In this document: positions 2,486 through 18,651 of the stretch, in pieces
Position numbering within the stretch: position 1 is the first letter of the stretch
Layout of the letters: every line of letters begins with the position of its first letter
DNA from: Thermocoleostomius sinensis A174
Lineage (GTDB): Bacteria; Cyanobacteriota; Cyanobacteriia; Elainellales; Elainellaceae
Length of the DNA stretch: 64,000 nucleotides
Direction: 5' to 3'
Assembly: GCF_026802175.1 (NCBI RefSeq)
Contig: NZ_CP113797.1
Location: 4,069,026 to 4,133,025 of the forward strand
Translations under genes and position numbers: made by a program
The notes under the pieces: generated by a model
What the model was told of the DNA's origin: nothing
Database searches by the model: none
The model's input: the letters and a program-made list of their open reading frames with translations, nothing else

Positions 2486-2488
2486 GTT

Positions 2489-3373
2489 ATGACCACCATT
2501 ACCCCTGCTGATCCACAGGTACAACCTCAATCCAAAGAGTCGAGCTTTCCCTGGCGCAAAATTCTGTTTGCGATCGCCGTTGTCGCCATTGTTATCTTCA
2601 GCCTAGCCCCCATTCTTTGGCAAGTATTGACCTCGTTCAAAACCAACGAAGACATTTCGGCGGTTCCCAATGTTTACTTTCCCACTCGGCTGACGCTGCA
2701 ACATTACATTGAGATTTTTGCCCGGCGCCCCTTTCTCAACTACATGCTCAACAGTGCCTTTGTCGCCATTACTTCAACGCTGTTGTGTTTGCTGCTGGGA
2801 ACCCCAGCGGCCTATGCCTTGGCGCGGTTGCGCTTGCCCGGAGAGCGAATTGTGCTGGCGATCGTGCTTGTGGTGACGTTGTTCCCATATATTCTGCTGT
2901 TTCTAGGGCTGCTGGAAATTGTTCGAGCCACTGGTCTAGCCAATAATTTCCTAGCGTTGATTGTTCCCTATACAGCAATGAACGTACCGCTGACCATATT
3001 AGTGATGCGCAGTTTCTTTCAGCAGCTTCCTCGTGACCTAGAAGACTCGGCCAAGGTCGATGGCTATACCACCTGGGGAATGTTGGCCAAGATTCTGATG
3101 CCCATGACGGTTCCAGCCTTGGTCACTACTGGTATTCTCACCTTTATTGCCGCCTGGAATGAATTTTTGTTTGCGCTTACCTTCATCACCCGCGAGTCGA
3201 TGAAGACCATTCCTGTCGCTGTGGCTCAACTCAGCGGCAGTAGCGTCTTTGAGATTCCCTATGGTGCTCAGGCAGCGGCTACGGTGGTTGGGACAATTCC
3301 GCTGGTGATTCTCGTTCTCCTCTTCCAACGCCGTATTGTGCAAGGTCTGACTTCCGGCGCGGTGAAAGGATAA
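2489..3373 (+). CDS. ABC sugar transporter permease (MalG/UgpE-like)
   Basis: Second permease of the importer, 294 aa. It has an N-terminal helix (about residues 25-45), five further helices and an EAA loop variant EDSAKVDGYTTWGMLAKILMP near residues 187-207. Family MalG/UgpE/AraQ. It follows the first permease by 3 bases. Downstream, 122 bases of heptamer-repeat DNA separate it from the ATPase gene. Confidence 0.9.
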   Translation: MTTITPADPQVQPQSKESSFPWRKILFAIAVVAIVIFSLAPILWQVLTSFKTNEDISAVPNVYFPTRLTLQHYIEIFARRPFLNYMLNSAFVAITSTLLCLLLGTPAAYALARLRLPGERIVLAIVLVVTLFPYILLFLGLLEIVRATGLANNFLALIVPYTAMNVPLTILVMRSFFQQLPRDLEDSAKVDGYTTWGMLAKILMPMTVPALVTTGILTFIAAWNEFLFALTFITRESMKTIPVAVAQLSGSSVFEIPYGAQAAATVVGTIPLVILVLLFQRRIVQGLTSGAVKG

Positions 3374-3434
3374 GTCAAGAGAGAAAGGATAAAAATCAAG
3401 AAGTGAGTTTGATACTTTAGCCTTTTGCTTTCCT

Positions 3435-3490
3435 ACTGCCCCCAGTCTCTAATTCCCAACTCCCAGTTCCTAATCCCTAACCCCTTAATA
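3435..3490 (+). repeat. Heptamer short tandem repeat (STRR), intergenic
   Basis: Degenerate 7-base units of the type AATTCCC/AACTCCC/AGTTCCT/AATCCCT/AACCCCT between the second permease and the ATPase gene. This is the cyanobacterial heptamer STRR class. It separates the ATPase from its operon without an obvious terminator. Confidence 0.6.
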
Positions 3491-3495
3491 GAACT

Positions 3496-4587
3496 ATGGC
3501 CAAACTTGAACTGATTCACCTCAATAAAACCTATTCACCCAAGATTATTCCCGTTAAGGATGTTAGCCTTAGCGTGGACGACGGTGAATTTTTGACGTTG
3601 CTGGGACCTTCTGGATGTGGTAAATCTACCATTCTGCGGCTGATTGCCGGGCTGGAACAACCCACCCATGGCGAAATTCGGATTAATGGTCGTGATGTCA
3701 CCAATGCTCCGCCGGGCGATCGCAATATTGCGATGGTGTTCCAAAGCTACGCGCTCTATCCGCACATGTCGGTATATGACAACATTGCGTCTGGGCTAAA
3801 GCTGAAAAAAGTGCCATCCGAAGAAATTCGAGTCCGCATTGAGCAGGTGAGCGATTTCTTGGGACTAGGTAGCCTGATGCAACGCAAGCCCGGTCAGCTT
3901 TCCGGAGGACAACGACAGCGAGTCGCGTTGGGACGGGCGTTGGTACGGCAACCAGATGTGTTTTTGTTAGATGAACCGTTAAGCAACCTAGATGCCCTAC
4001 TGCGGGAACAAGTTCGGGCGGAACTGAAACAAATTTTTGAGACTCAAAACACGCCTGTTGTCTATGTAACGCACGATCAAACCGAAGCAATGACCCTGTC
4101 TACGAAAGTTGCGGTGCTCTATAATGGCGATTTGCAACAACTAGATTCGCCTCGGCGGATTTACACCCATCCTGCGAACCGATTTGTGGCGGGGTTTGTA
4201 GGTAGCCCCCAAATGAACTTGTTGGATCTGAGGTGCGACGGCCGGTTTGCGATTTTGGGGAATTATAAGATTCCCTTACCGAACGGACTACAGTCGCCGG
4301 GGCATATTGTGTTGGGAATTCGACCGGAGCATGTACGGCTCGCCGATGCGAGTGATAGCCATCCGATCGCTGCAAAGGTCATCTTAAAAGAAAACCTAGG
4401 AATGAGTGATTTGATTAGCACTCGTGTGGATGGAGCCGAGAACTTGTTGCTGCGGGCCTTATTGCCCAGCGATCGTCCTTGGCAAGAAGAATCTATCAAA
4501 CTAACGTTGCCATTAGACGCCATTCATTGGTTCCATCCCGATACGGGCGAACGGTTAAACAGTGAGAACCTACAGGTGGTTCGATAG
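3496..4587 (+). CDS. ABC sugar transporter ATP-binding protein (MalK/UgpC-like)
   Basis: Cytoplasmic ATPase energising the importer; 363 aa. Walker A GPSGCGKST (about residues 38-46), Q-loop MVFQSYALYPHM, signature LSGGQRQR, Walker B VFLLDEPLSNLDA and the switch histidine in VYVTHDQTEAM are all intact. The C-terminal ~110 residues are the OB/TOBE regulatory fold of the MalK/MsmK/UgpC subfamily (IRPEHVRL). That subfamily pairs with MalF/MalG-type permeases and sometimes serves several importers. It ends convergent to rpaA. Confidence 0.92.
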   Translation: MAKLELIHLNKTYSPKIIPVKDVSLSVDDGEFLTLLGPSGCGKSTILRLIAGLEQPTHGEIRINGRDVTNAPPGDRNIAMVFQSYALYPHMSVYDNIASGLKLKKVPSEEIRVRIEQVSDFLGLGSLMQRKPGQLSGGQRQRVALGRALVRQPDVFLLDEPLSNLDALLREQVRAELKQIFETQNTPVVYVTHDQTEAMTLSTKVAVLYNGDLQQLDSPRRIYTHPANRFVAGFVGSPQMNLLDLRCDGRFAILGNYKIPLPNGLQSPGHIVLGIRPEHVRLADASDSHPIAAKVILKENLGMSDLISTRVDGAENLLLRALLPSDRPWQEESIKLTLPLDAIHWFHPDTGERLNSENLQVVR

Positions 4588-4598
4588 AACCGCTCGAC

Positions 4599-4634
4599 AT
4601 CCTCTGGCGAGAAGGCTGCGATCGCTCAGAGGAT
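4599..4634. terminator. Possible hairpin between convergent genes
   Basis: Eight-base-pair inverted repeat ATCCTCTG/CAGAGGAT around a 20-base loop containing a HIP1 site, between the ABC ATPase stop and the rpaA stop. It lacks a T-tract, so a bidirectional terminator is only possible. Confidence 0.35.
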
Positions 4635-5386
4635 TAGAGTTCAGAGGGTTCAACATCGTCTGAAGTTGAGGACGCTTGCCCTCCAGTTGTTGGTAGCTCC
4701 AGGCAATAACCAGCACCATACACGGTTTTGATGTAACGAGGATGACGAGGATCAGGTTCTAGCTTGGTGCGTAGATGACGAACGTGTACGCGAATGGTTT
4801 CAATGTCGTCATTGGGATCGTATCCCCATACCTCTTTGAGAATCTCACTTGGCGATACGGTTTGTCCGTGGCGCTGAAGCAAACAGTGTAACAGTTCAAA
4901 CTCTAAATGCGTCAGTTTAACAGTGTGATCAAACCAAATGGCTTCAAGCCGCTCCGGCACGAGGGTGAGTGGCCCGAAGTTGAGAATTTCGGTATGTTTC
5001 GCCGCTTGAGGAATGCGATCGGTTCGCCGCAGTAACGCCCGCACCCGCGCTAACATTTCCTCAATCTCGAAGGGTTTAGTCAAGTAATCATCAGCCCCAG
5101 CATTAAAGCCTTCGACTTTATCTTGAGTTTGCCCCAGCGCCGTCAACATCAACACTGGAATATCGGCCGTGCGATCGTCTCGGCGAAGACGCTGACACAC
5201 CGTAAAACCATCTACCTTCGGCAGCATTAAGTCCAACATAATTAGATCAGGAATTAGCTGGAGTGCTAAAGCCTGACCTTTAATACCATCTGGCGCTTGG
5301 CTCACGTCATACCCAGCCATCTCTAGGTTGACCGCGACCAATTCCGAAATTGCAGGATCATCATCGATGACAAGTATACGAGGCAT
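4634..5386 (-). CDS. rpaA: Response regulator RpaA (OmpR family, circadian output)
   Basis: Two-component response regulator, 250 aa. The receiver domain (1-120) carries the acidic pair DDD near residue 8, the phospho-acceptor in LIMLDLMLP and the switch lysine in [10 protein letters not shown]. The winged-helix OmpR DNA-binding domain spans about 145-235 ([24 protein letters not shown]). Long stretches match the cyanobacterial RpaA sequence as I remember it ([47 protein letters not shown]). RpaA takes the clock signal from SasA/CikA and controls rhythmic and dark-time genes; its paralogue RpaB differs in the receiver. No kinase gene is adjacent, as is usual. Confidence 0.85.
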
Positions 5387-5416
5387 TTCTACAGGTATTG
5401 CGTTGTTTTCATGGAT

Positions 5417-5472
5417 AATGGCTAGCCATTAGGAATCTGTATCGGAATAAAAAGATTCCTGTACAGATTATA
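5417..5472 (-). promoter_or_regulatory. rpaA upstream region with two dyads and a -10-like box
   Basis: Contains a perfect 14-bp palindrome AATGGCTAGCCATT (5417-5430), an adjacent inverted repeat AGGAATCT/AGATTCCT (5431-5438 and 5453-5460), and TATAAT on the minus strand at 5467-5472. All lie within 90 bp of the rpaA ATG. No good -35 box is spaced to the TATAAT. The dyads could be autoregulatory or RNA-leader elements; function is inference. Confidence 0.4.
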
Positions 5473-5569
5473 AGCAAGGATTCTAAATTCTTTCTAAGCA
5501 TGTCAAATCTATCAATTTATGTAGAAGATTTAACACTGCTTTTATGCCGATCGGCTGCCAGACCTGCAA

Positions 5570-6454
5570 CTAGCAAATTGCCAAAATATCTGAGCAATAT
5601 TCCTTGACCATGGGCGATCGAGCGCCTGTGTTCGTCCACAACACTGGGAAAAAGCTGTCGTCTAAGGTAGAACTGTTAGCACAACGGTAGCGGCTGAAAA
5701 TATAACCCACCCCTGTCCCTGGGGGTTGAAAGCAAGCATTGACCGGCAAGGTGCTGATGGCAAAACTGCGCCGCCATTGATTGGTTGTATTGCATCCAGA
5801 CCCATGCCACAGGTCGCCATGCAGAAATACACAGCCGCCAGCCGGTAATTCGATTGGCACAATGGTAGAGCGATCGATTTTGGCATCCCGTGCGGCTTGC
5901 CACAGTGGTTGGCGATAATCTCCTTCGGGCGCATGCACAAAGCGAAACTGATCGGAGCCAGGCCAGTGATGCGATCCGGGAACAACTTCTAAGGTACCCA
6001 TTTGTGCCGTGATGGAGTTGAGGGCAATCCAACAGGTGACAATGGCCGCCGGATCAATGCAACTAACGTAGGTAGAGTTGCGATGAAATGCGACTTCGGG
6101 TGCGTTGGGCGGCTTTAGCCAACAGCTATCCATCGCCAAGCGTGCGCCAGACCAGCCTGCCAGGGTTGCATTCAGTCGCGCCACCTCAGCCGACAACGAC
6201 AAACTGGCCACGGTTCGATCGCAGCGCCACAGTCCAACCATCTGCCGCGTTGCATGGGGACGGCTTAGTCCGGGGCGTCCGTGCCATTCATCCGGATAAA
6301 TGCCTGTTTCTAAGCGGGTAGCAAATAGGGGATCAAGCCGATCGTCAATGTGCTTCACCACCTCAAGGGGCAAAAACCGATCGAGGATGAGAAATCCTTG
6401 CTGGCGAAACTGAAGAATTTGCGCCTCGCTGAATTCAATAGGTTGATAGCGCAT
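5570..6454 (-). CDS. PhyH-family dioxygenase-like protein with HxN in place of HxD
   Basis: Phytanoyl-CoA-dioxygenase (PhyH) superfamily, normally Fe(II)/2-oxoglutarate oxygenases; 294 aa. The fold is well kept: GFLILDRFL near residue 20, EVVPGSHHW about 156-164, GDLWHGSG with the distal histidine H217, and the 2OG-binding arginine region QWRRSFA. The proximal motif is FHRN (H124, N126), where the neighbouring paralogue has HHQD, so the metal-binding carboxylate is replaced by asparagine. It may be a non-catalytic partner or have altered chemistry. The ORF overlaps the end of the upstream paralogue by 20 bases, so the two are coupled. No close assignment to a known substrate. Confidence 0.8.
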   Translation of the reverse strand: MRYQPIEFSEAQILQFRQQGFLILDRFLPLEVVKHIDDRLDPLFATRLETGIYPDEWHGRPGLSRPHATRQMVGLWRCDRTVASLSLSAEVARLNATLAGWSGARLAMDSCWLKPPNAPEVAFHRNSTYVSCIDPAAIVTCWIALNSITAQMGTLEVVPGSHHWPGSDQFRFVHAPEGDYRQPLWQAARDAKIDRSTIVPIELPAGGCVFLHGDLWHGSGCNTTNQWRRSFAISTLPVNACFQPPGTGVGYIFSRYRCANSSTLDDSFFPVLWTNTGARSPMVKEYCSDILAIC

Positions 6455-7379
6455 GATTCTGTGACTCCCCGATTATCCAAGCCTGCTCTCGATCGTCCTC
6501 GTCTAAGTCATTTTCCTGTAAACAATAATTCTGTAAGAAGGGCGTGCGGTAGCCATCTTGTTGCCAAGCGATTGGAAAAAAGCTTTCATCCATTGTGTCA
6601 TCGCCAAAGCGTTTGTAGCGCCCTGGCAAATAGCCACCAGGAACATAAGTGCCAGTAGACTTAAACCGCGCCGTTGAGGGAATATGCGAAATGACCAAAC
6701 TGCGACGGAGGAAATTGGGCTTGAGGTTTTTACCAGAGCCGTGCCACATGTGCCCATGATGAAAGGCACAGTCCCCTGGATTCAGCGATAATTGCAGAAC
6801 AGTAGGGGTTTCAATCCCAGCCCGCTTAGCGGCTTGTTCCATCTCGCTGCGATAGCCCCTACTAGTGGCATGAAATTCTGCAACGGTTTGCGATAACGTC
6901 CAGCGGTGGGAACCAGGAACATATTCGATCGTGCTGGCTCCAGGCATGGCGGGGCTGAGAGCCAACCAACAAATCACCAAGTCCTGGGGTGTGTGATAGT
7001 GGCAGTACATCGAGTCTTGATGATGCGTTGTTTCGGATGCGCCATAGGGTTTCATCCATAGGCTATCGGTTAAGACTCGCGTTCCGCTCCAGCCGCCCAA
7101 GCTGGCGCTGATTTCAGCCAACTCGGCTGAAAATACTACCGACGCAAAAGCCCGATCGCTTTTCCAGACATTGCTCATTTGTCCAGATGCTCCCGGTAGT
7201 CCCAACCGTGGGTTCCAATACCACTCGTCTGGATAAACACCCGTTTCAAAGTTGCCTGCAAACAGCGATTCCACTCGATCGGCTAAGCGTTGCATCCGCG
7301 CCGGATTCATGAGATTGCGGACAACTAAGAAGCCATCGCGGTGAAATTGCTCAATTTGGTCAGAAGTGATCAGCGACAT
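6435..7379 (-). CDS. PhyH-family Fe(II)/2-oxoglutarate dioxygenase
   Basis: Predicted non-haem iron oxygenase of the PhyH superfamily, 314 aa from the ATG at 7379. The open frame extends upstream through the promoter region, but that part is not protein-like. The facial triad is complete: H120 and D122 (HHQD) and H213 (MWHGSG), with RR225-226 for 2-oxoglutarate. It is paralogous to the downstream gene along its whole length. It is transcribed divergently from the amidotransferase/GntR/permease/GS genes, with a dyad operator 57 bp before its start. PhyH enzymes hydroxylate amines, amino acids, phosphonates and lipids; context suggests a nitrogenous substrate. Confidence 0.85.
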   Translation of the reverse strand: MSLITSDQIEQFHRDGFLVVRNLMNPARMQRLADRVESLFAGNFETGVYPDEWYWNPRLGLPGASGQMSNVWKSDRAFASVVFSAELAEISASLGGWSGTRVLTDSLWMKPYGASETTHHQDSMYCHYHTPQDLVICWLALSPAMPGASTIEYVPGSHRWTLSQTVAEFHATSRGYRSEMEQAAKRAGIETPTVLQLSLNPGDCAFHHGHMWHGSGKNLKPNFLRRSLVISHIPSTARFKSTGTYVPGGYLPGRYKRFGDDTMDESFFPIAWQQDGYRTPFLQNYCLQENDLDEDDREQAWIIGESQNHALSTY

Positions 7380-7435
7380 AGACAGAATGAAATTAGGTAG
7401 AGTTGCTACCCGATAGCAGGAACGATAGCAGAAAA

Positions 7436-7474
7436 AATGGTATGAAGTTGTACCATTCAACTTACCATTCAACT
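7436..7474. promoter_or_regulatory. Dyad operator in divergent promoter (site 1)
   Basis: AATGGTA (7436-7442), 8-base spacer, TACCATT (7451-7457). The 12-base block TACCATTCAACT is then tandemly repeated (7451-7462 and 7463-7474), adding a third half-site. It lies between the PhyH gene start (7379) and the amidotransferase start (7525). Read on the opposite strand it matches site 2 at 9137-9158 in 20 of 22 positions. The likely ligand is the FadR/GntR protein encoded at 8295, by context. Confidence 0.75.
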
Positions 7475-7524
7475 TAAAATGTTCACGATTGGCAATTCGT
7501 AGCTGGCAATACCAACAGAAATTT

Positions 7525-8286
7525 ATGCAACTTGCTGCAACCAATCCGCCAAAGATACTTGTAATTCGCCATGAGGCTTGCACTAGCTTAGGGCTATTGG
7601 GGCAAGCGCTCTCCCCCGATCACAGAGTTCACTATCTCAATTTCTTTCAAGGTGAGCAGTTAACGGATGTGATTACCGACTACTCGCACTTGGTTGTGTT
7701 AGGTGGAGCCATCAGTGCCTACGAAGCCGATCGCCATTCCTTTCTGCATGACGAATTTCACCTGATTGAAACGGCGATGGCGGCTGAAATTCCTACGCTT
7801 GGAATTTGTCTAGGGGCGCAGATTTTAGCCAAAGTTTTAGGAGCTAATGTCTATCGTGGCGCTGCTGGACGAGAAGCTGGTTGGTGTGAGGTAGAGTTAC
7901 TAGAGGCTGCTAGTCGGGATCGGTTGCTGCGCTCGTTTCCCAAACGGTTTCGCGTGTTTCAATCGCACCAAGACACCTTTGAGATTCCGACTGGAGCGGT
8001 GCGGCTGGCCCAAAGTGCTCAATATCCCAATCAAGCTTTTTGCTATGGCGATCGGATATGGGCGTTACAATTTCATCTAGAGTTTGACGAGCATGTGTTA
8101 ACCGATTGCGCCGCCGTCATTACCCAAGAACTCTACGACAGTGGTATTCACACTACCACCGTCTCAGATTTACTAGCAGCAGCGAAACGTCATTCTCCTG
8201 CCGTTGCCCCCCTTGCCCATCAATTCATGCAGCAGTTTTTTCAACTTCCAACCCTCAATTCCCAATCCCCCAACCCTAACTCTTAA
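7525..8286 (+). CDS. Class I glutamine amidotransferase-like hydrolase
   Basis: GATase class I fold, 253 aa from the ATG at 7525; a TTG at 7489 would add 12 residues within promoter DNA. The catalytic cysteine lies in GICLGAQ (C95), and the His-Glu pair in ALQFHLEF (H184, E186). No synthetase domain is attached. In amine catabolism, such proteins (PuuD-like or those beside GlnA4) hydrolyse gamma-glutamyl intermediates; this role is inferred from the downstream GS-like ligase. The last residues (LNSQSPNPNS) are encoded by heptamer-repeat DNA, so the C-terminus has been extended or replaced. The GntR gene starts 8 bases later. Confidence 0.8.
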   Translation: MQLAATNPPKILVIRHEACTSLGLLGQALSPDHRVHYLNFFQGEQLTDVITDYSHLVVLGGAISAYEADRHSFLHDEFHLIETAMAAEIPTLGICLGAQILAKVLGANVYRGAAGREAGWCEVELLEAASRDRLLRSFPKRFRVFQSHQDTFEIPTGAVRLAQSAQYPNQAFCYGDRIWALQFHLEFDEHVLTDCAAVITQELYDSGIHTTTVSDLLAAAKRHSPAVAPLAHQFMQQFFQLPTLNSQSPNPNS

Positions 8287-8292
8287 TCCCCT
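8246..8292 (+). repeat. Heptamer STRR at the 3' end of the amidotransferase gene
   Basis: Degenerate units CCAACCC/TCAATTCCC/AATCCCC/CAACCCT/AACTCTT/AATCCCC. It encodes the last dozen residues of the amidotransferase and leads into the GntR start. Confidence 0.6.
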
Positions 8293-8294
8293 TC

Positions 8295-9056
8295 ATGCCT
8301 ACCCCGCGCCACGTATCCAGTCCTATTAGCCAGCGATCGACTCAGCGATCGGCCGATGCGTTGTTGCGAGGCCCTAAGCCCACCATTAATCCCTTTGAAG
8401 TCACCCTAGAGCGACTGGGATCGGCTATTAAAATGGGACTATATGAGCCGGGCGATCAACTGCCTAGTGAACGAGACATCGCCAAATTGATGGGGATCAG
8501 TCGGGCAACGGTGCGGGAAGCAATTCGCCTCCTAGTGGAACAAGGCATTCTTACGGTAAAGCGGGGGCGATCGGGCGGTACGTTTGTTTCTGAAAACCCG
8601 CCCTCAGAAGCGCTGTTGGAGTTGCGACGACGACTTCATACCAGTGGTGCTACTTTATCTGAAATTTTGGATCATCGTTTGGTGGTCGAAACTGGAATTG
8701 TGGAACTGGCGGCCCAACGTGCACAAGCCGATCAATTAGAAGAATTGCAAGCGTTAGTGAATGTGATGCAGCAGGCCGATAGTTACGCGGTTTATCGCAA
8801 ACTAGACATTCGCTTTCATCTATTAATTGCCAAAGCGACGCAAACGAATCGACTTCCGGCGATCGTAGCTGACATTCACTCAGAATTATCGGACTTACTG
8901 CAAACGGCTCCCTATAGCCGCTCTCAACAAAGCCACTCGACGCAACAACATCAAGAGATTCTTGATGCGATGCAGCAGCAAGATGGAGTTTCCGCCAGAG
9001 AGGTGATGCAAGAACATATCCTTGCAACCAACAGCTTTTTGAAGGGATTACTCTAA
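8295..9056 (+). CDS. GntR-family transcriptional regulator, FadR subfamily
   Basis: 253 aa. Residues 33-107 form the winged helix-turn-helix (GDQLPSERDIAKLMGISRATVREAIRLL). Residues 125-245 are the all-helical FCD ligand-binding domain, with the metal-ligand pattern of the family (D and H in KLDIRFHLLI, H in QQHQEIL, H in EHILATN). The first ~30 residues are low-complexity and may be an over-long start. FadR-type regulators usually repress catabolic genes and release DNA on binding a carboxylate. Two matching dyads flank this gene (7436 and 9137), so it is the obvious candidate to control both the PhyH pair and the permease-GS-oxoprolinase genes. Confidence 0.9.
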   Translation: MPTPRHVSSPISQRSTQRSADALLRGPKPTINPFEVTLERLGSAIKMGLYEPGDQLPSERDIAKLMGISRATVREAIRLLVEQGILTVKRGRSGGTFVSENPPSEALLELRRRLHTSGATLSEILDHRLVVETGIVELAAQRAQADQLEELQALVNVMQQADSYAVYRKLDIRFHLLIAKATQTNRLPAIVADIHSELSDLLQTAPYSRSQQSHSTQQHQEILDAMQQQDGVSAREVMQEHILATNSFLKGLL

Positions 9057-9136
9057 AGCCAGTTCAGCTAAGCTTAAGATTTCAATCACTTTGTATTTGC
9101 AGTTACTAATTTACAATCAGGGACAGCGTACGTTTT

Positions 9137-9158
9137 AATGGTACGATTTCATACCATT
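9137..9158. promoter_or_regulatory. Dyad operator before the permease gene (site 2)
   Basis: AATGGTA (9137-9143), spacer CGATTTCA, TACCATT (9152-9158), 132 bp before the permease ATG. Arms are identical to site 1, and 6 of 8 spacer bases agree with site 1 in inverted orientation. This points to a real regulator site rather than a chance dyad. Confidence 0.75.
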
Positions 9159-9290
9159 GGTTCCCGAAAACGACACGCAGATCTTAGGGGAGTGAACCTA
9201 TTCTAGAGCCATTGCTCCAAGACTGGAGCGCGTCGTGGTGACAAAACGATACTGCTAAAATCTTGACGTTATTCTCACAAGTGAGGGTGT

Positions 9291-10778
9291 ATGGCAAATA
9301 AACCGCCGAAAGGAATTGCCCGGTACGAGAATGTGGGAGATGAATACTTGCAAAAACGGCAGCTACGCCGCAGTGCCGGATGGGTTCTGCTGTGGGCGCT
9401 CGGGGTCGGGGCGGTCATCTCTGGCGATTTCTTTGGTTGGAATTTTGGATTGGCGGCAGGCGGCTTTTGGGGACTGGCGATCGCCACGTTTCTCATGGCC
9501 ATCATGTATCTGTGCCTCGTCTTTTGCATTGCAGAATTATCAGCAGCATTACCTCATGCCGGAGGGTCCTATGCTTTCACCCGCTATGCTTTTGGTCCCT
9601 TGGGCGGCTACCTGAACGGCATTACTGACCTAATTGAGTACATTCTGGCCACCTCTGTGGTAGTGGTTGGGATTGGTGGCTACCTACAAACCCTAATACC
9701 AGGCATTCCATTGTTGTTTTGGTGGTTGCTCGCTTATGCCGTGTTTGTGGCAATCAACATTCGCGGGGTAGAACTAACCCTGAAAGTTGCACTCGTCATT
9801 ACGCTGCTGGCAGTTGCCATGTTGGTGTTGTTCTATGTCGGGGCGATTGGGTCGGGTGCGTTTGATCCGGCCTTGTTGTTTAATTTAGAACCCGATCCGG
9901 GGCAATCTGCCACGTGGTTGCCCAGGGGATGGTTTGGCGTATTTGCCGCTTTGCCATTCGCGATTTGGTTCTACTTGGCGATCGAGCAGCTTCCCCTGGC
10001 AGCCGAAGAAACCCATAATGTGGCGCGAGATATCCCAAGGGCAATTGTGTGGGGCATTGTGACGCTGCTGATTTTGTCGCTGTTTACCTTGGTGCTGAAC
10101 TCAGGGGTTGGCGGTGGGGTCGCGGCGATCGGCGAATCGGCGGCTCCGCTTAGTGATGGCTTTCAAGCGGTGTTTGGATCGGGGGTGACAACCGTTGTTT
10201 TAACGCTGATTGCCCTGACTGGATTAATTGCCAGCTTCCACACCGTCATTTATGCCTATGGACGAGTGCTGTTTGCCCTATCGCGGGCAGGCTATATTCC
10301 CCGCTGGATCTCTGTCACCGGACGGTTTCACACCCCAGCCAGAGCACTGATTTTGGGCGCAGTCATTGGGATTTTGTGTGCACTGTTGATCGATCGCTTT
10401 AGCAGCACCTTGGGCGCGGCATTACTCAATATGTCGGTGTTTGGAGCCGTCATTACCTATACGCTGATTTTCTTTACCTATATCAAGCTGCGGTTAGCGC
10501 GTCCTGATTTACATCGTCCTTACAAAAGTCCAGTGGGCTTGACTGGGGCGATCGTAGGAGCGATGTTATCGATTCTGGCACTGTTTGCTTGCTTCTCAAT
10601 TCCCGATTATCGTCCTGGAGTTTGGGGAACGTTGATTTTTCTCATTGTGGCCGTGCTGTATTTTCTGCTGTACAGTCGCCATAAGTTAGTGGCGCAAGCC
10701 CCTGAAGAGGAAGATGCCCTGTTGGGACGTGCCCTTCGGGAAATCGATCATCCACATGGTATTGATTTGCAGCGATAA
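9291..10778 (+). CDS. APC-family amine permease (ethanolamine permease-like)
   Basis: Inner-membrane amino acid/polyamine/organocation transporter, 495 aa with about 12 helices. The segments GDFFGWNFGLAAGGF, MYLCLVFCIAELSAALPHAGG and VVVVGIGGYLQTL closely resemble the ethanolamine permease (Eat) branch as I remember it. A GAGGG-type RBS (GTGAGGGTGT) sits just before the ATG. The GS-like gene follows after 42 bases. Transport of ethanolamine or a similar small amine is likely but not proven. Confidence 0.85.
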   Translation: MANKPPKGIARYENVGDEYLQKRQLRRSAGWVLLWALGVGAVISGDFFGWNFGLAAGGFWGLAIATFLMAIMYLCLVFCIAELSAALPHAGGSYAFTRYAFGPLGGYLNGITDLIEYILATSVVVVGIGGYLQTLIPGIPLLFWWLLAYAVFVAINIRGVELTLKVALVITLLAVAMLVLFYVGAIGSGAFDPALLFNLEPDPGQSATWLPRGWFGVFAALPFAIWFYLAIEQLPLAAEETHNVARDIPRAIVWGIVTLLILSLFTLVLNSGVGGGVAAIGESAAPLSDGFQAVFGSGVTTVVLTLIALTGLIASFHTVIYAYGRVLFALSRAGYIPRWISVTGRFHTPARALILGAVIGILCALLIDRFSSTLGAALLNMSVFGAVITYTLIFFTYIKLRLARPDLHRPYKSPVGLTGAIVGAMLSILALFACFSIPDYRPGVWGTLIFLIVAVLYFLLYSRHKLVAQAPEEEDALLGRALREIDHPHGIDLQR

Positions 10779-10820
10779 CGTTGCCGTTATCATTTCGTCT
10801 GTAGCAAGCGAGAAACAGGT

Positions 10821-12209
10821 ATGGACACCTCAAAGTTGCGTGGCAGGTTGACAGTTGAAACGCTAGCCCAGTTAGTGGAAGATGAGCAGATTGAAACCAT
10901 TCTGACCGTCATTCCTGATCTGTATGGGCGATTGGTAGGTAAACGCATTACGAGTGATTTTTTTCTCAATGATGTACTGAAAGAGGGAATCCATGCCTGT
11001 GATTATTTATTGGCGTGCGATATGGAAATGGAACCCGTGCGCGGCTATGCCTTCACCAATTGGGCCAGCGGCTATGGCGATTTTCGGCTGATTCCTGATT
11101 TAAGCACTCTGCGGCTGGCTTCGTGGTTAGACAAAACGGCGATCGTTCTCTGTGATGTCTACAACGAAGAAGAAGATGAATTGGTGGCGGTGGCTCCCCG
11201 CACAATTTTGCGACAGCAAGTTGAACGAGCAAAATCCCTAGGCTATACGGCTATGGGTGCATCGGAATTAGAACTTTATGTGTTTTCCGAGTCTTACGAA
11301 GAAGCCCGTCGTAAGCACTATCATGACCTACATCCGATCGGTCCGTATGTTGAAGACTATCACATCTTTCAAGGAACAAAAGAAGAATTTGTGATTGGCG
11401 CGATTCGCCGACATTTAGAGCGATCGGGCATTCCGGTTGAGTTCTCTAAAGGAGAGTGGGGCCCGGGTCAGCAGGAAATCAACCTGCGCTACAGCGATTT
11501 CTTGGAAATGTGCGATCGCCATTGCCTCTACAAGCATTTGGCCAAAGAAATTGCTTGGCAAAACCAGGTGGCGGTCACGTTTATGTCTAAGTGGGATGAG
11601 CGCTTCGCCGGATCGAGTATGCACCTGCACGCCAGCCTATGGGATCAAGCAGGACAGGCGTTGTTTCCGGGTGAAGAACCGTTTGGACCAGTACACAGTT
11701 CGCCGCTGTTCCGCTGGTTTTTGGGAGGGTGGATGCAGCATATCCGCGAAATTTTTGCTTTCTATGCCCCCTATCCCACCTCTTATAAGCGCTATGTAGC
11801 CGGTTCGTTCGCACCGACGGGGATCGCTTGGTCGTATGACAACCGCACAGCTGGGTTTCGCGTTTTGGGACACGGATCATCGTTGCGGCTAGAATGTCGT
11901 GCCCCTGGAGCCGATGCCAATCCCTATCTGGCGTTTGCGGTAACGCTAGCTGCCGGACTTGACGGAATCAAGAACCAAATTGAACCCCCGCCTATGTTTG
12001 AGGGTGATGTCTACGAGGCTAACAATTTGCCGCAAGTACCGCGTAGCCTCAATGAAGCCATTGCCGAACTGGAGCAAAGCCAGTGGGCCCGATCGATCTT
12101 GGGAGAGGCGATCGTCGAGCATTACCTCCATTTCTTCCGCACCGAGCAACGCAAATTTGATGAAGTAGTCACCAGTTGGGAACGGGCCCGTTACTTTGAA
12201 CGTGCATAG
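10821..12209 (+). CDS. Glutamine synthetase-like gamma-glutamylamine ligase
   Basis: GS-fold ATP-dependent ligase, 462 aa, close to PuuA/GlnA4-type enzymes rather than housekeeping GlnA. Metal and ATP residues are present: E149/E151 (GASELELYVF), E212 and E219 (GEWGPGQQEI), H268 and H270 (SMHLHASLWD), R342, E358 and R360 (LRLECRAPGADANPYLA). No GlnA adenylylation tyrosine motif is evident. Such enzymes join glutamate to an amine (putrescine, ethanolamine, isopropylamine and so on) to give a gamma-glutamyl amide. Position right after an ethanolamine-type permease supports an amine substrate. Confidence 0.85.
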   Translation: MDTSKLRGRLTVETLAQLVEDEQIETILTVIPDLYGRLVGKRITSDFFLNDVLKEGIHACDYLLACDMEMEPVRGYAFTNWASGYGDFRLIPDLSTLRLASWLDKTAIVLCDVYNEEEDELVAVAPRTILRQQVERAKSLGYTAMGASELELYVFSESYEEARRKHYHDLHPIGPYVEDYHIFQGTKEEFVIGAIRRHLERSGIPVEFSKGEWGPGQQEINLRYSDFLEMCDRHCLYKHLAKEIAWQNQVAVTFMSKWDERFAGSSMHLHASLWDQAGQALFPGEEPFGPVHSSPLFRWFLGGWMQHIREIFAFYAPYPTSYKRYVAGSFAPTGIAWSYDNRTAGFRVLGHGSSLRLECRAPGADANPYLAFAVTLAAGLDGIKNQIEPPPMFEGDVYEANNLPQVPRSLNEAIAELEQSQWARSILGEAIVEHYLHFFRTEQRKFDEVVTSWERARYFERA

Positions 12210-12248
12210 ATGCGGGAATTCCGTGACTGATGCAAGCGCACCTAGAAA

Positions 12249-12290
12249 GCTAATCTGTAGAAATTAGCATCCCTCGGCGAAACGCGCCGA
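12249..12290 (+). promoter_or_regulatory. Tandem hairpins between GS-like and oxoprolinase genes
   Basis: Two short stem-loops: GCTAAT/ATTAGC with an 8-base loop (12249-12268) and TCGGCG/CGCCGA with a 5-base loop (12274-12290). No T-tract follows, so a terminator is unlikely; an mRNA processing or leader structure is possible. The 123-bp gap is the longest inside the permease-GS-oxoprolinase run. Confidence 0.4.
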
Positions 12291-12332
12291 TACCTTGGGG
12301 GTGTGGATTGATCTACGATAAGGACTTCTCTC

Positions 12333-15300
12333 ATGCTGAACGTATTTGCCGATCGCGGCGGAACCTTTACCGATCTGGTGGCAGTTACCGATCAACCTGA
12401 CATTGTCGATCGATTATTGCTATTTCCAGAACGGTTTCAGGTCACGGCGTTACCGAATCAGCAGTGGGTGGTGGTTTATAAATTGCTGTCAGAACAACCG
12501 GATCAGTACCAAGATGCGGTCATTCAGGGCGTGCGCGATATTTTGGGACTGTCGAACCATGAACCGATCCCACCTGAGGCGATCGATCGGCTCAAGATGG
12601 GTACAACGGTGGCAACCAATGCGCTGTTGGAACGCAAAGGCGATCGCACGGTGCTATTAATCACCAAAGGCTTTGGCGATGCCCTGCGAATTGGCTATCA
12701 GAATCGCCCGGATATCTTTGCGCGTCAGATTGTGTTGCCGGAGATGCTCTATGAACGAGTGATTGAAGTAGAGGAGCGCTATACCGCCCAAGGCGACGAA
12801 TTAATTCCGATTACCGCTGAAGAACAGACTCGACTCGTCGAAGCCTTACAAGCAGCTTATAGGGATGGTATTCAAGCTTGTGCAATCGTGTTGTTGCACG
12901 GCTACCGTTACCCCAATCATGAAGCTCAAGTGGCAGCGATCGCCCGTGAGGTGGGGTTCACGCAAATCTCGGTTTCCCATGACGTTAGTCCACTCATGAA
13001 ACTAGTCAGTCGAGGGGACACTACCGTAGTAGATGCGTATCTTTCGCCAATTTTGCGTCGCTATGTAGAGCAAGTTGCGTCTGCTTTAGAGAGTAGTGCT
13101 GATTGTGGATCGGCTAATCTTCTACCAACGCTAGAGTTCATGAAGTCTGATGGCGGGCTAACGAACGCTCGATTGTTTCAAGGGAAAGATAGCATTTTGT
13201 CTGGCCCAGCAGGCGGTATCGTTGGGGCGGTGAAAACAAGTACCAGTGCTGGATTTGACAAAATCATTGGCTTTGACATGGGCGGCACGTCTACCGATGT
13301 TTCCCACTTCAATGGTGAGTACGAACGCAGCTTTGAAACTGAGGTGGCAGGTGTGCGGCTGCGATCGCCGATGCTGTCGATTCATACGGTGGCGGCTGGC
13401 GGTGGTTCTATTCTGGTTTTTGATGGGTTTCGCTATCGAGTTGGGCCAGAGTCTGCCGGAGCACACCCCGGCCCGGCATGTTATCGCAAAGGTGGCCCGC
13501 TGACAGTTACCGACTGCAATGTCATGCTGGGAAAAATTCAGCCAGACTTCTTTCCCAAAGTGTTTGGAGCCGAAGGCAATTTGCCGTTAGATCGATCGAT
13601 CGTTCAAGAAAAATTCACGGCATTGACGGTTGAAATTGCTGAGAAAACTAGCGCTTCGCCCCCCAACCAACGCACCCCAGAACAAGTGGCAGAAGGATTT
13701 TTAAGGATTGCGATCGACAAAATGGCCAACGCCATTAAAAAGATTTCAGTGCAGCGTGGGTATGACATCACTGACTACACATTGTGTTGCTTTGGGGGGG
13801 CGGGCGGTCAACATGCGTGCCTGATTGCTGAAGCGTTGGGCATGAAGCAGATTTTTATCCATCCCTACGCCGGCGTGTTATCGGCTTACGGGATTGGACT
13901 GGCCGATTTGCGCACCCTCAAGGAAAAAGCAATTGAAGCTCGATTACATGAGTCTGTGATGCCTACCCTAACCCAGACATTAGAGGAATTGACCCATAGC
14001 GCTTGGGCTGAAATGATCGCTCAGGGAGTCAGCGATGATCGAATTCAGGTGATACAAAAGGCACATCTTCGATATGAAGGTACAGACTCAGCGTTGGTTG
14101 TGGATGTTGGTTCAACCGCAGAAATGCGATCGCGATTTGAGCGAGCGTATCAGCAGCGCTACGGATTTATCATGACCGACAAGGCTTTGGTGGTAGAGGC
14201 GGTTTCGGTAGAAGTTATTGGACAAACGACCCCGTTAGAAGAACCCCGATTGTCCACCGAGCGAACCACATCCCTACAGCCTGTGGCAACCGTGACGCTC
14301 TACACAAAAAACCAGTGGTGGGAAACTCCTGTTTATCAACGTGAGGATTTAAGACCAGGCGATCGAATCATAGGAACGGCTCTAATTATTGAAGCAACCG
14401 GAACAAATGTCATTGAACCGGGGTGGTATGCAGAAGTAACCGAAAAAAATCATCTAATCTTGAAGCGAGAGCAGTTTACTTCATCAAATTTTACTGCTCT
14501 AGAAACCACCTTAAATCATCGAACTGACTATCCTGAAACTCGTCCTGATCCAGTACTGTTAGAAATTTTCAATAACTTGTTTCGAGCGATCGCTGAAGAA
14601 ATGGGTATTACTCTGCAAAATACTAGCTATTCCGTCAACATCAAAGAGCGACTTGATTTTTCTTGCGCTGTTTTTGACCACCAAGGACAACTTGTGGCGA
14701 ATGCTCCACATATTCCCGTACACCTTGGTTCTATGAGTGAAAGTGTACGCAGCCTCATCGATGCCAACGGTAACGCCCTCAGACCTGGGGACGTTTATGT
14801 GTCCAATAATCCCTACAATGGTGGTACACATTTGCCAGATGTGACAGTCATTACTCCGGTATTCATGCCGAATGTCTCAGCTTCAGAGGAGGAACTTCAT
14901 CCTCACTTTTATGTAGCATCTCGTGGACATCATGCGGATATTGGCGGAATTACACCCGGTTCGATGCCACCCCATAGCACCTCTATGGAACAAGAGGGGG
15001 TTTTGCTGGACAACGTTCAACTAATCAAACAAGGTCAATTTTGCGAATCAGAAATCTTACATCTATTAACCACAGGTGCGTATCCCGCACGCAATCCAGT
15101 TCAAAATTTGGCCGATCTGCAAGCTCAAGTTGCCGCAAATGAGCGCGGAGTGCAAGAGCTACAACGGATTGTAAAGCACTATGGATTAGAACTAGTGCAA
15201 ACCTATATGCAGCATGTACAAGCGAATGCTGAGGAATCTGTGCGTCGAGTAATTGATGTTCTCAGAGATGGACAGTTCTGTTACCCAATGGATGACGGCT

Positions 15301-16106
15301 GTGAGATTCAGGTTCGCATTACAATCGACCGTTCGACACGATCGGCGCACATCGATTTCACCGGCACATCTCCCCAACAACCAACCAACTTAAATGCGCC
15401 ACTGGCCATTGGTAAAGCGGTGGTTCTGTATGTATTTCGTACCTTGGTCGATGATGACATTCCTCTTAATGCAGGCTGCCTGAAGCCGCTGAAGATCACT
15501 ATTCCAGAAGGGTGTATGCTCAATCCGCGCTATCCAGCCGCCGTAGTGGCAGGTAACGTGGAAACTTCACAAGCGATCGCCAATGCCCTCTATGGGGCGC
15601 TGGGGGTGATGGCAGCGGCTCAAGGGACGATGAACAACTTTACTTTTGGCAATCAGCATCATCAATACTACGAAACCATTTGCGGTGGTTCGGGGGCGGG
15701 CGCAACCTTTGACGGAACTGATGCTGTGCAAACACACATGACCAACTCACGCTTAACTGATCCAGAAGTACTAGAGTGGCGCTTTCCTGTCCTAGTCGAA
15801 AACTTCGCTATTCGTGCTAACAGTGGTGGTAAGGGCCAGCATTCGGGAGGCAATGGCGTAATTCGACATATTCGGTTTCAGGAAGCCATGACAGCAGCCA
15901 TTTTGTCAGGGCATCGCATTGTTCCACCATTTGGGCTACAGGGAGGCAACCCAGGGGCAGTCGGGCGAAATGCGGTCAAACGACGGAACGGAGCGATCGA
16001 GCCTCTTTCCAGCAAAGCCGAAGTGGATATGCAACCGGGCGATGTTTTTGTAATTGAAACGCCGGGCGGTGGTGGGTTTGGAACAAAACCCTTGGAAAAC
16101 TCATAA
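12333..16106 (+). CDS. ATP-dependent 5-oxoprolinase (HyuA-HyuB fusion)
   Basis: 1257 aa, the full length of eukaryote-type 5-oxoprolinase. The N-terminal hydantoinase A part (1 to about 690) has the phosphate-binding start [39 protein letters not shown] and [19 protein letters not shown]. The C-terminal hydantoinase B part (about 740-1257) has [19 protein letters not shown] and ends with the ETPGGGGFG motif. It hydrolyses 5-oxo-L-proline to glutamate using ATP. Behind a gamma-glutamyl ligase it would return glutamate from 5-oxoproline formed out of gamma-glutamyl compounds. Other Hyu-family activities are less likely given these motifs. Confidence 0.85.
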
Positions 16107-16411
16107 TAAGGTCAAAGAATCATGAGAAGATGCCGCCGAAACTCCCTCGCCCGTTAAGCAGGATACGTCCAACTGATACAGCCCTCAGCCTCTGTTCCTC
16201 TCCCAAAGGGCGCGAGACTGGAAGCCGGAAGAATGGGTGTTGCTGGAGCTGTGGTGAGAGGGTGCTCTAGACTCCCCTTTGTCTAAGGTTGGGAGAAGGG
16301 GCAGGGGGATGGGGGCGGATACGGACATTACAATCCGAATGTGGGTGCAATCCGTTAGGCAGGCGCGATCGCAGGGAATCCTGTATATAGTCACACTGTG
16401 TAAGAAGCCGC
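16107..16411. repeat. Intergenic spacer with dispersed G/C-rich inverted repeat
   Basis: No gene is seen. From about 16185 to 16316 there is a C-rich stretch (CCTCTCCCAAAGGG) followed by a G-rich one (GGGAGAAGGGGCAGGGGGATGGGG). The same composition and arrangement recur near 27 kb, 40.8 kb and 49.8 kb, suggesting a dispersed non-coding element. Confidence 0.45.
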
Positions 16412-17428
16412 ATGTCTTTCAAGATTGAGCAAGGGCTGTTTAGTCTCGATTTCACGGACTATCATGCCATTTTGGGAGTTCCAGTCGATGCAGACGCCAA
16501 AGATATCCGAAAGCGCTACTTAACTATTGCCCGCCGGCTCCATCCCGACAGTTGCACCACCGACAATGATGTCGATCGTCAACGTGCCGCCAACTTTTTG
16601 TCAAAGCTCGTCAATCCTGCCTACGAAAAGCTGTCACAAGAAAAAAACTATGTGGAGTATGCTGTACTCTTGCGGTTAAAGGGGCAACAAGCCCTGCGAC
16701 AACAAGACACCATAGCATTAACCAGTGATGCTGCTCGTCGATTAGCCTCTGCCAGTGATTTAGAGACGTCTTACCGGGCGGCAATACGAGAAGTAGCCGA
16801 ACACCAATACCAGCAGCTAGAGCAATCGCTCGTGTATATTGGGCAAATCAGTGAGCTAAACCTAGTGTATTTGATGCGCAAGGAAAGCCGAGGAGAATCG
16901 ATCGGACTGCCGCAATTGGACGAATCCATCAATTCATCGAGTGCAGCCTCTCGATCGAGCACTGTTCCATCACCGTTGCCGAAACCCCCTTCTGCCCCCC
17001 CAACTCGCGACTCGCTGATCTCAGCCTACCTCCGCCGTGCCCAAGAGTTTGAAACCAAACAAGACTTTCCTCGTGCCATTCAAGAACTGCGAGAAGCCCT
17101 GCGAATGGATGCAACCAACAGTGCTTGTCACAGCCGTCTAGGTCTCATTTACCTGAAAACCCAACAAACCACGATGGCGAAAATCCATTTTAATAAAGCC
17201 TTAGAGTTAAATCCCCAAGATGCGGTAGCCTTGGAAGGTAAACGCAAATTAGAACCCTCAAACAGTCAGAAAGCGACTAAGCCAGATGGAAAGGGTGCTA
17301 AACCTGCTTTTGGTAAATCTGATCCAAAGGCAAAAACGCCTCCTAGAGGCGCTTTGGAAGCGGGAGAAAAGCCCAATTCCACCGGCAAGGGCGGTCTGTT
17401 CAGACTGTTTGGCAACAAGAAGAAGTGA
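16412..17428 (+). CDS. J-domain/TPR protein
   Basis: 338 aa. Residues 15-75 form a DnaJ-type J-domain (DYHAILGVPVDADAKDIRKRY) with the essential HPD in RLHPDSC, so it can stimulate an Hsp70 (DnaK). A Pro/Ser linker (about 175-200) leads to two TPR-like repeats (about 205-285: AQEFETKQDFPRAIQELREALRMD and LGLIYLKTQQTTMAKIHFNKALEL). The tail is Lys/Gly/Pro-rich and ends FRLFGNKKK. There are no Zn-finger or substrate domains, so it is a type III J-protein. It overlaps the hisZ start by one base (TGATG). Confidence 0.85.
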   Translation: MSFKIEQGLFSLDFTDYHAILGVPVDADAKDIRKRYLTIARRLHPDSCTTDNDVDRQRAANFLSKLVNPAYEKLSQEKNYVEYAVLLRLKGQQALRQQDTIALTSDAARRLASASDLETSYRAAIREVAEHQYQQLEQSLVYIGQISELNLVYLMRKESRGESIGLPQLDESINSSSAASRSSTVPSPLPKPPSAPPTRDSLISAYLRRAQEFETKQDFPRAIQELREALRMDATNSACHSRLGLIYLKTQQTTMAKIHFNKALELNPQDAVALEGKRKLEPSNSQKATKPDGKGAKPAFGKSDPKAKTPPRGALEAGEKPNSTGKGGLFRLFGNKKK

Positions 17429-18651
17429 TGGTTTACCAACCCCCCGCTGGCTCACGCGATTTGTTTCCCCTAGATGTTGCCCAAAAACGATGGATTGAAG
17501 AGCGAATTCAACAAGTCTTTCACAGCTGGGGATATCACCGAATCATTACCCCGACCTTAGAACGATTAGAAACGCTGATGGCAGGTGGCGCGATCGAACA
17601 ATCGACTGTGATTCAACTGCAAGATGTGGATGGGGAAGCGCTGGGGTTACGCCCAGAACTAACTGCGTCAATTGCCAGAGCGGCTGTCACTCGCATGGTC
17701 GGAGTGAGCTATCCTCAACGGCTCTACTACAACGCCAATGTGTTTCGTCGGGCTACTAAAGGCAGCGACAATCGGCAACAAGAGTTTTATCAAGCCGGGG
17801 TAGAACTCCTGGGAACGGGTAGCGTTGCGGCCGATGCAGAAATTCTCTTCATCTTGTTCGACTGTCTGCATAGCCTCAAGCTCGAAGGGTGTTCGCTCAT
17901 CGTTGGAGACGCCGGCCTAACCCGATCGCTGCTTTCGCCCTTTCCTGAATCGATTCGAGAATCGGTACGAGAGTCGATTGCTCAACTCGATCGCATTGCC
18001 CTAGAATCCTTACCGCTGTCTGCCGAACTCCAGGAACGCGCCCGATTGTTGCTCGACTTACGAGGTGAACCCGCCGATGTACTGCAACAGGTGTCTCGCC
18101 TTAATCTGGATGACAAGCAACGATCGATCGTCACTCGCCTCAAAGCCCTGACTGAATTACTGCAAACCAGCCAATCACCAATCCCTAACCCCCAACCCTC
18201 GATCGTACTGGATTTAAGCCTGATTCAAGCGATCGACTACTACACCGGGATTGTATTTGAAGTCGCGGGGCCATCCGGGCGGCGCATTTTGGGACAAGGT
18301 GGACGCTATGATCAACTGCTGAGCCTTTACCAACCTCAGGGGCAGACCTGTCCTGGTATCGGATTTGTGCTGAATATCGAAGAATTGCAACAGGTATTGC
18401 TGACCGACGGACAGTTGCCCCTGCACACACCTGCCAGTGAATGGTTAGTTGTACCGACGAGTCCCGCTGCCTATGCAGCAGCCTTTGCTCATGCCCAAAA
18501 GATTCGAGCTTCGGCTCACTTGGTGCGGGTAGAGGTAGAATTGGGCGATCGAACGACTCCAGAGGACATTCGTGAATATGCTAAACATCGCCGCGTTAAA
18601 CAAATTGCTTGGGTTAGCGCTGAGGGATTATCGCAAGTGGAGACGGTGTAG
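17428..18651 (+). CDS. hisZ: ATP phosphoribosyltransferase regulatory subunit HisZ
   Basis: 407 aa, homologous to the catalytic core of histidyl-tRNA synthetase but without an anticodon-binding domain. It has class II motifs: motif 2-like FRRATKGSDNRQQEFYQAGVELLG, and YYTGIVFEV with GGRYDQL. HisZ assembles with short-form HisG to catalyse and regulate the first step of histidine synthesis. The ATG at 17428 overlaps the upstream stop; a GTG three bases earlier is also possible. A Pro/Asn-rich loop (SQSPIPNPQPS) before VLDLSLIQAIDYYTG is encoded by heptamer-repeat DNA and is probably a lineage-specific insertion. Confidence 0.85.
   Translation: MVYQPPAGSRDLFPLDVAQKRWIEERIQQVFHSWGYHRIITPTLERLETLMAGGAIEQSTVIQLQDVDGEALGLRPELTASIARAAVTRMVGVSYPQRLYYNANVFRRATKGSDNRQQEFYQAGVELLGTGSVAADAEILFILFDCLHSLKLEGCSLIVGDAGLTRSLLSPFPESIRESVRESIAQLDRIALESLPLSAELQERARLLLDLRGEPADVLQQVSRLNLDDKQRSIVTRLKALTELLQTSQSPIPNPQPSIVLDLSLIQAIDYYTGIVFEVAGPSGRRILGQGGRYDQLLSLYQPQGQTCPGIGFVLNIEELQQVLLTDGQLPLHTPASEWLVVPTSPAAYAAAFAHAQKIRASAHLVRVEVELGDRTTPEDIREYAKHRRVKQIAWVSAEGLSQVETV
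18172..18202 (+). repeat. Heptamer STRR inside hisZ
   Basis: AATCACC/AATCCCT/AACCCCC/AACCCTC units in frame, encoding the SQSPIPNPQPS loop of HisZ. Confidence 0.6.

Follow-up and report, generated by a model that had tools for sequence, protein, structure and literature searches.

Conserved linkage of a PhyH2-PhyH1 pair with a GATase and a glutamine synthetase-like ligase in a candidate amine-use locus of Thermocoleostomius sinensis A174

In the Puu putrescine pathway, the amine is glutamylated first, and hydrolysis by an enzyme of the glutamine amidotransferase (GATase) fold comes last. The isopropylamine pathway follows the same logic as the aniline systems, and glutamylation-dependent amine use involving flavin oxidases is also known. 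Versions relying on dehydrogenases (PMC6529630, PMC10132767) or on Rieske oxygenases (PMC11335346) have been described too. The Streptomyces genes for gamma-glutamylated ethanolamine include a short-chain dehydrogenase (SDR), an aldehyde dehydrogenase (ALDH), glnA4, a regulator, a permease and an amidotransferase (PMC6529630), and the corresponding Phaeobacter cluster comprises a ligase, two dehydrogenases, an amidohydrolase and a TRAP transporter (PMC10132767). The aniline and 1-naphthylamine systems (Atd and Npa) bring together a glutamine synthetase (GS)-like ligase, a GAT-like protein and a Rieske oxygenase; the second of these proteins is considered to hold down the level of the glutamylated intermediate (PMC11335346). 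Here, we describe a locus in a 64-kb window, the whole stretch of DNA that was analysed, from the 5.81-Mb single-contig genome of the cyanobacterium Thermocoleostomius sinensis A174. The locus features a GS-like ligase, a GATase, a permease and a GntR regulator, accompanied by a tandem pair of PhyH-family genes.

We propose that the block at 5570-12209 is one GntR regulon for the use of a small amine as a nitrogen source, with ethanolamine or a related amino alcohol as the likeliest substrate, in which PhyH2 and PhyH1 oxidise the gamma-glutamyl amide in place of SDR and ALDH; we give this proposal an even chance of being right. A sequence-only reading of the window had proposed a similar pathway, in which a downstream 5-oxoprolinase recovers glutamate. 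The seven genes on which it was based are all present, each open from end to end, and only the start sites of PhyH2 and GATase had to be corrected. As a whole, that pathway is partly supported: the linkage was found again, co-regulation gained support short of proof, the 5-oxoprolinase is no conserved part, one PhyH has an incomplete iron motif, and the order of the steps is something that we infer.

PhyH loci were collected from PhyH1 matches among 60 genomes (25 loci), from a cyanobacterial search with PhyH2 (four loci) and from a search of the L189-type family (two loci); the fragments G398:C493 and G415:C432, as well as a second copy in G592, were left out. The tandem PhyH2-PhyH1 pair occurs at 13 loci (the window, L067, L102-L111 and L189). 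L189 belongs to a family other than that of the window, and this PhyH was found in 3 of 217 genomes of that family. A GS-like gene lies near the pair in nine of the 11 loci, from two cyanobacterial families, that can be judged past PhyH1, the contigs of L102 and L111 ending just after or within this gene. GATase is found near 10 of the 12 pairs that can be judged before PhyH2 (L108 was dropped from this count), and is always divergent. At four GS-like genes per genome, one would fall inside the stretch by chance approximately 1.5% of the time, and nine hits in 11 would have a probability of approximately 2e-15 if loci were independent; as the loci are related, this value is a guide only. L103-L106 and L110 have an APC permease gene after the pair; identity to the permease of the window is 22-24% for those three that were measured. 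The core formed by GATase, PhyH2, PhyH1 and a GS-like ligase is conserved, and neighbourhood comparison bore out in other genomes the linkage, often including a permease, that had been put forward from the window alone. On draft contigs, frames are split in L109 PhyH2 and in the L105 permease, and the L108 PhyH2 fragment, located at a contig edge, has a stop.

The GATase gene (7525-8286, plus strand) encodes a protein of the class I glutamine amidotransferase fold (PF00117, 64.3 bits). The protein scores 162 bits with NF005458, under the cut-off of 250, has gamma-glutamyl peptidase 1 as a relative (9k7i, E 5e-8), and is probably a gamma-glutamyl amide hydrolase. Relatives at E 1e-40 are present in 2 of 386 cyanobacterial genomes, its own included.

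For PhyH2, first given as 6435-7583 on the minus strand, the ATG at 7379 is the most likely start, and for GATase it is the ATG at 7525; a divergent promoter of 145 bp consequently separates the two genes. This promoter carries the palindrome ATGGTA-N8-TACCAT at 7437-7456, and a second copy is found at 9138-9157, upstream of the permease gene; neither is assigned to a strand. These are the only perfect copies in the 5.81-Mb genome, and both sites share the seven-base arms AATGGTA/TACCATT. Seven sites have one mismatch, on a par with the backward control pattern (seven in total), and the shuffled window yielded 0.12 matches when up to one mismatch was allowed. The adjacent gene at 8295-9056 (plus strand) encodes a GntR/FCD transcription regulator (PF07729 and PF00392). 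Its position and the shape of the site suggest that the palindrome is probably the GntR operator. If GntR binds it, the PhyH, GATase, GntR, permease and GS genes form one regulon. That the PhyH genes are co-regulated with the others, as earlier proposed, is in this way supported, though not proved, by the coincidence of the only two perfect palindromes with the two promoters of the block.

Genome G413, sister of the window in the PhyH2 clade, has a single perfect palindrome, located in the GATase/PhyH2 promoter; this genome is a 69% complete draft, and its contig carries no GntR, permease or GS gene. Different palindromes lie between GntR and the permease in L021 and L023. As a general operator of PhyH loci, ATGGTA-N8-TACCAT is ruled out, 13 of the 14 other genomes searched having no perfect copy. 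Other signals were left unused: promoter predictions were at background level (10 found, 11.6 expected), and many of the 21 terminator-like sites (11.4 expected) fall within genes.

PhyH1 (5570-6454) and PhyH2 (6435-7379), both on the minus strand, match PF05721 with 102.7 and 78.9 bits, respectively (cut-off, 22). The two genes share 20 nt, an overlap suggestive of coupled translation. PhyH2, a PhyH-type Fe(II)/2-oxoglutarate oxygenase, has a complete iron motif, consisting of HQD plus a distal histidine (WHGSG). In PhyH1, HRN replaces HxD, and the HxD...H triad is incomplete. The loss of the motif's aspartate from PhyH1 is a point that the earlier reading does not mention. The difference is a constant feature of the pairs, as PhyH1 has HxN in all 13 loci (HRN in 12, HHN in L067), and PhyH2 has HQD in 12, the L109 copy not being read at that site; HQD is also found in all 19 solo PhyH proteins of the same family. 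Three comparisons gave PhyH1 ratios of nonsynonymous to synonymous substitutions (dN/dS) of 0.06, 0.08 and 0.13 (dS above 1.5 in two of them), and this purifying selection indicates that PhyH1 is not a decaying gene. Judged by these motifs, PhyH1 is likely to be a partner of PhyH2 that is either non-catalytic or altered.

In a PhyH tree of 39 rows, the 11 PhyH1 rows of the pairs form one clade (support 100/100) and the 10 PhyH2 rows form another (100/100), while the 18 solo rows fall outside both. PhyH1 has matches in 24 of the 60 relative genomes, and PhyH2 has relatives at E 1e-25 in 5 of 386 genomes of the cyanobacterial phylum, its own genome being included in either count. The closest solved chains are 4xaa for PhyH2 (E 1.4e-9) and 2opw for PhyH1 (E 1.3e-11). 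AlphaFold models obtained from a two-row alignment were unusable, with a mean pLDDT of 32.0 for PhyH2 and 31.4 for PhyH1. None of the 23 records retrieved from a plasmid collection with PhyH2 covers 80% of the query, and identity is below 30% among the 20 matches listed.

The permease gene (9291-10778, plus strand) encodes an APC-family protein of the ethanolamine permease type (TIGR00908, 410.6 bits; cut-off, 381.75), and the ligase gene (10821-12209, plus strand) encodes a GS-like gamma-glutamyl ligase (PF00120, 312.6 bits), the closest solved chains to which are 11zs_A and 5dm3_A. Scanning genome contigs with this ligase returned 38 loci with relatives, which, by record label, span cyanobacteria, Chloroflexi, KSB1, Acidobacteria, Armatimonadetes, Deltaproteobacteria/Myxococcota and others. 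Within their neighbourhoods (up to 10 kb on each side; many contigs are shorter), SDR genes were found at 24 loci, ALDH genes at 14 (two of them only 31-32% identical), a C26 hydrolase gene at 12 and a related permease gene at four. L054 features another GATase-fold neighbour. The TIGR00908 cut-off is also passed by the permeases of L021 and, by 0.15 bits, L027, and GntR proteins 55-67% identical to that of the window occur near the same GS lineage in L015, L021 and L023 (the L015 copy is broken). In L015 (5381-7564; genome G011, same family), the GntR gene is split by an ISKra4-type transposase gene. Ligases 79% identical to that of the window are present in L028 (filed under Nitrospinota) and L043 (KSB1), a feature that may reflect gene transfer or misbinned contigs.

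Compared with the ALDH of L021, the best match in the T. sinensis genome, which lies away from the block, shows 43% identity, against 75-82% for the ALDHs encoded near the ligase at other cyanobacterial loci; no close counterpart of this dedicated enzyme is present in the genome. Since SDR and ALDH genes are also missing from the block, the window resembles the front end of an ethanolamine-type pathway without the usual adjoining oxidising enzymes. Four lineages (the window type, GS', GS500 and GS441) are represented among the ligases near PhyH genes, which indicates that an oxygenase joined a ligase on more than one occasion. The window lineage, GS' (seven rows, including L189) and GS500 (nine rows) are each supported at 100/100, and GS441 is represented by L066, near L014, a paralogue of the window genome; deep joins in the tree are unsafe because of long branches. 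In L103-L106 and L110, a DUF6885 gene is convergent to the GS' ligase gene (Pfam assignment for the L103 copy, similarity for the others).

According to their family membership, the permease would import the amine and the GS-like ligase would join it to glutamate. PhyH2, as a heteromer with PhyH1, may then oxidise the gamma-glutamyl amide using O2 and 2-oxoglutarate, the pair taking the place of the SDR and ALDH steps of related ligase clusters. GATase would cleave the gamma-glutamyl bond, either releasing the product and glutamate or keeping the intermediate low. The oxidation and cleavage steps are suggested by the conserved linkage and by the precedent of the aniline and 1-naphthylamine systems (PMC11335346). 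If the substrate is a gamma-glutamyl amino alcohol, hydroxylating its carbinol carbon twice could yield the aldehyde and then the acid, replacing both SDR and ALDH. Alternatively, attack next to the nitrogen could yield glycolaldehyde and glutamine; the data fit either route.

Several observations weigh against this proposal. No GS-like gene was found in the 20-kb stretch of L067 or in that of L107, although L107 has a GATase, and no GATase was found near the pairs of L067 and L189. In L067 (6527-19998), the pair lies within a cluster of polyketide synthase (PKS), P450 and methyltransferase genes. ALDH genes near two pairs (L103 and L109) indicate that PhyH need not replace ALDH. None of the 38 loci of the window ligase lineage has a PhyH or an OplAH gene (the 5-oxoprolinase-type gene discussed below) in the neighbourhood, or a GATase gene scoring above 70 bits (L039 gave a weak hit of 48 bits), so that the exact combination found in the window is seen in this genome only. 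The perfect palindrome is missing from all 13 genomes searched besides G413; moreover, perfect copies of the backward control pattern, one or two per genome, occur in 5 of these 14 genomes, and it is the places of the copies, not their number, that are telling. The lack of SDR and ALDH genes concerns the block itself, SDR and C26 genes not having been sought in the rest of the genome. Judged by the lineages of permease and ligase, an ethanolamine-like substrate is plausible at most.

Solo PhyH genes of the same family, found in 19 further loci (including L190), tie the family to amine nitrogen use by association. Close to them, some contigs being short, are a GS-like gene in 11 of the 19 loci, an SBP_bac_3 protein gene in 13 and a trimethylamine N-oxide (TMAO) demethylase-like gene in seven; ammonium transporter genes are also found near seven. 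L068 has a trimethylamine monooxygenase gene (NF058570, 798 bits; cut-off, 675), and its TMAO demethylase-like neighbour scores 826 bits, below the cut-off of 1100.

Seven of these loci (L068, L069, L115, L116, L118, L119 and L122) are islands in which TMAO demethylase-like and SBP_bac_3 genes occur together, and which suggest methylated-amine use. All but L116, the contig of which ends early, have a type III GS-like ligase gene, and ammonium transporter, acyl-CoA-dehydrogenase-like and MOSC genes are often present. On such islands, the open-licence PMC literature, as far as titles and abstract starts reveal, offered nothing beyond a review on contaminants. An open reading frame of approximately 133-147 residues, K4, adjoins the ammonium transporter gene in L069, L115, L116, L118-L120 and L122; the L122 copy has no Pfam match. 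The arginine at one PhyH site is usually said to bind 2-oxoglutarate. In nine solo PhyHs (L114, L116, L118-L122, L124 and L125), HQD and the distal histidine are kept and FHS replaces RRS or a similar sequence, and this arginine is apparently lost.

The association with methylated amines makes it conceivable that the window regulon serves an alkylamine (isopropylamine or methylamine, for example), and that the PhyH pair, in the manner of the isopropylamine or aniline oxygenases, hydroxylates a gamma-glutamyl alkylamide, possibly next to the nitrogen, releasing an aldehyde and glutamine. The solo PhyHs in islands with TMAO demethylase-like genes, trimethylamine monooxygenase and type III GS-like ligases argue for this possibility, as does the combination of GS-like ligase, GAT-like protein and Rieske oxygenase reported for the aniline systems (PMC11335346). 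However, the permease and the GS lineage of the window are those of ethanolamine-type clusters, the solo PhyHs branch outside both pair clades, and neither Tmm nor Tdm is encoded among the scanned proteins of 1583-18651; we regard an alkylamine as a rather unlikely substrate. The block could also consist of two unrelated neighbours, an ethanolamine-type GntR-permease-GS operon and a GATase-PhyH2-PhyH1 unit with a job of its own, perhaps biosynthetic. In favour of this are the separate histories of the two parts, the window ligase lineage occurring without PhyH at 38 loci and the pair elsewhere going with GS', and the one pair that sits in a PKS/P450 cluster. It is also in line with genomes G403 and G412, each of which carries a PhyH-GS' cluster and, on another contig, a window-type ligase gene with ALDH and C26 genes (and SDR in G403), an arrangement that implies apparently separate functions there. 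Against such a split, both promoters carry the same perfect palindrome, of which the genome has no further copy, and most pairs elsewhere are linked to a GS-like ligase. Moreover, the three other GS-like genes of the window genome are at most approximately 33% identical to GS', which leaves the window ligase as the sole adjoining candidate partner of the pair. On balance, we hold two independent modules to be unlikely.

The full pathway first read from the sequence further included the gene at 12333-16106 (plus strand), which encodes a fused HyuA-HyuB protein of the 5-oxoprolinase/hydantoinase type (OplAH; PF01968 and PF02538) and would turn 5-oxoproline, once released from the gamma-glutamyl amide, back into glutamate. 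The gene lies on the same strand, 123 bp downstream of the GS gene, which speaks for membership. It is, however, present in 53 of the 60 genomes searched, its own included (a single match in this genome); the other 31 PhyH loci lack it over the stretches available, and no palindrome, perfect or with one mismatch, precedes it. These counts rule out the 5-oxoprolinase as a conserved part of the regulon and do not uphold its place in the pathway, the complete version of which we consider very improbable. OplAH is probably a neighbour and not a regulon member.

The regulon proposed for 5570-12209 could be one instance of a general cyanobacterial oxidation module, in which PhyH-type Fe/2-oxoglutarate oxygenases, either solo or as obligate HxD + HxN pairs, act on gamma-glutamyl N-alkyl amides and have been combined with four or more GS-like lineages. 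In trimethylamine-type islands, solo enzymes would convert gamma-glutamylmethylamide to glutamine and formaldehyde, and the window pair would act on gamma-glutamylethanolamide. We offer this generalization tentatively, as a possible but doubtful one. If true, an Fe/2-oxoglutarate oxygenase version with a conserved subunit lacking a metal ligand would represent a new enzyme logic, and phototrophs would have a so far unrecognised way of drawing nitrogen from ethanolamine and methylated amines. The related cyanobacterial clusters suggest a little-explored way of using amines for this purpose. No description of PhyH oxygenases in glutamylation-based amine use was found among those titles and abstract starts that were listed from the open-licence PMC literature, a source that leaves subscription journals mostly uncovered and is not proof of absence.

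Among PhyH-family oxygenases, EctD, MysH and PHYHD1 share with the pair the family and, with PhyH2, the HxD...H motif. They are distant relatives, as the ectoine hydroxylase model scores 18.6 bits on PhyH1 (cut-off, 336.5) and does not hit PhyH2. With the Puu pathway, represented by the models NF045547 and NF008471, the route proposed for the window shares the logic of glutamylation first and GATase last, but the oxidising enzyme differs, and the window ligase scores 194.5 on the gamma-glutamylputrescine synthetase model, the cut-off of which is 650. The likeness to the GlnA4 and Phaeobacter clusters lies in the grouping of a GS-like ligase, a regulator, a transporter and an amidotransferase-fold protein, and relatives of the window ligase are often accompanied by SDR and ALDH, as in those sets. 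The window has the GS catalytic domain (PF00120) and the ethanolamine-type permease (TIGR00908) of a GlnA4-type cluster. In contrast to such a cluster, it lacks adjoining SDR and ALDH genes beside the GS gene and has the PhyH2-PhyH1 pair in their place; its transporter is an APC permease, whereas that of Phaeobacter is of the TRAP type. The Atd and Npa systems employ a Rieske oxygenase with a reductase, domains of which are absent among the proteins of the block, whereas the window has a PhyH-type pair and includes a permease. What the Atd and Npa systems and the window have in common is the combination of a GS-like ligase, a GAT-like hydrolase and an oxygenase that acts, or in the window would act, on the glutamylated amine.

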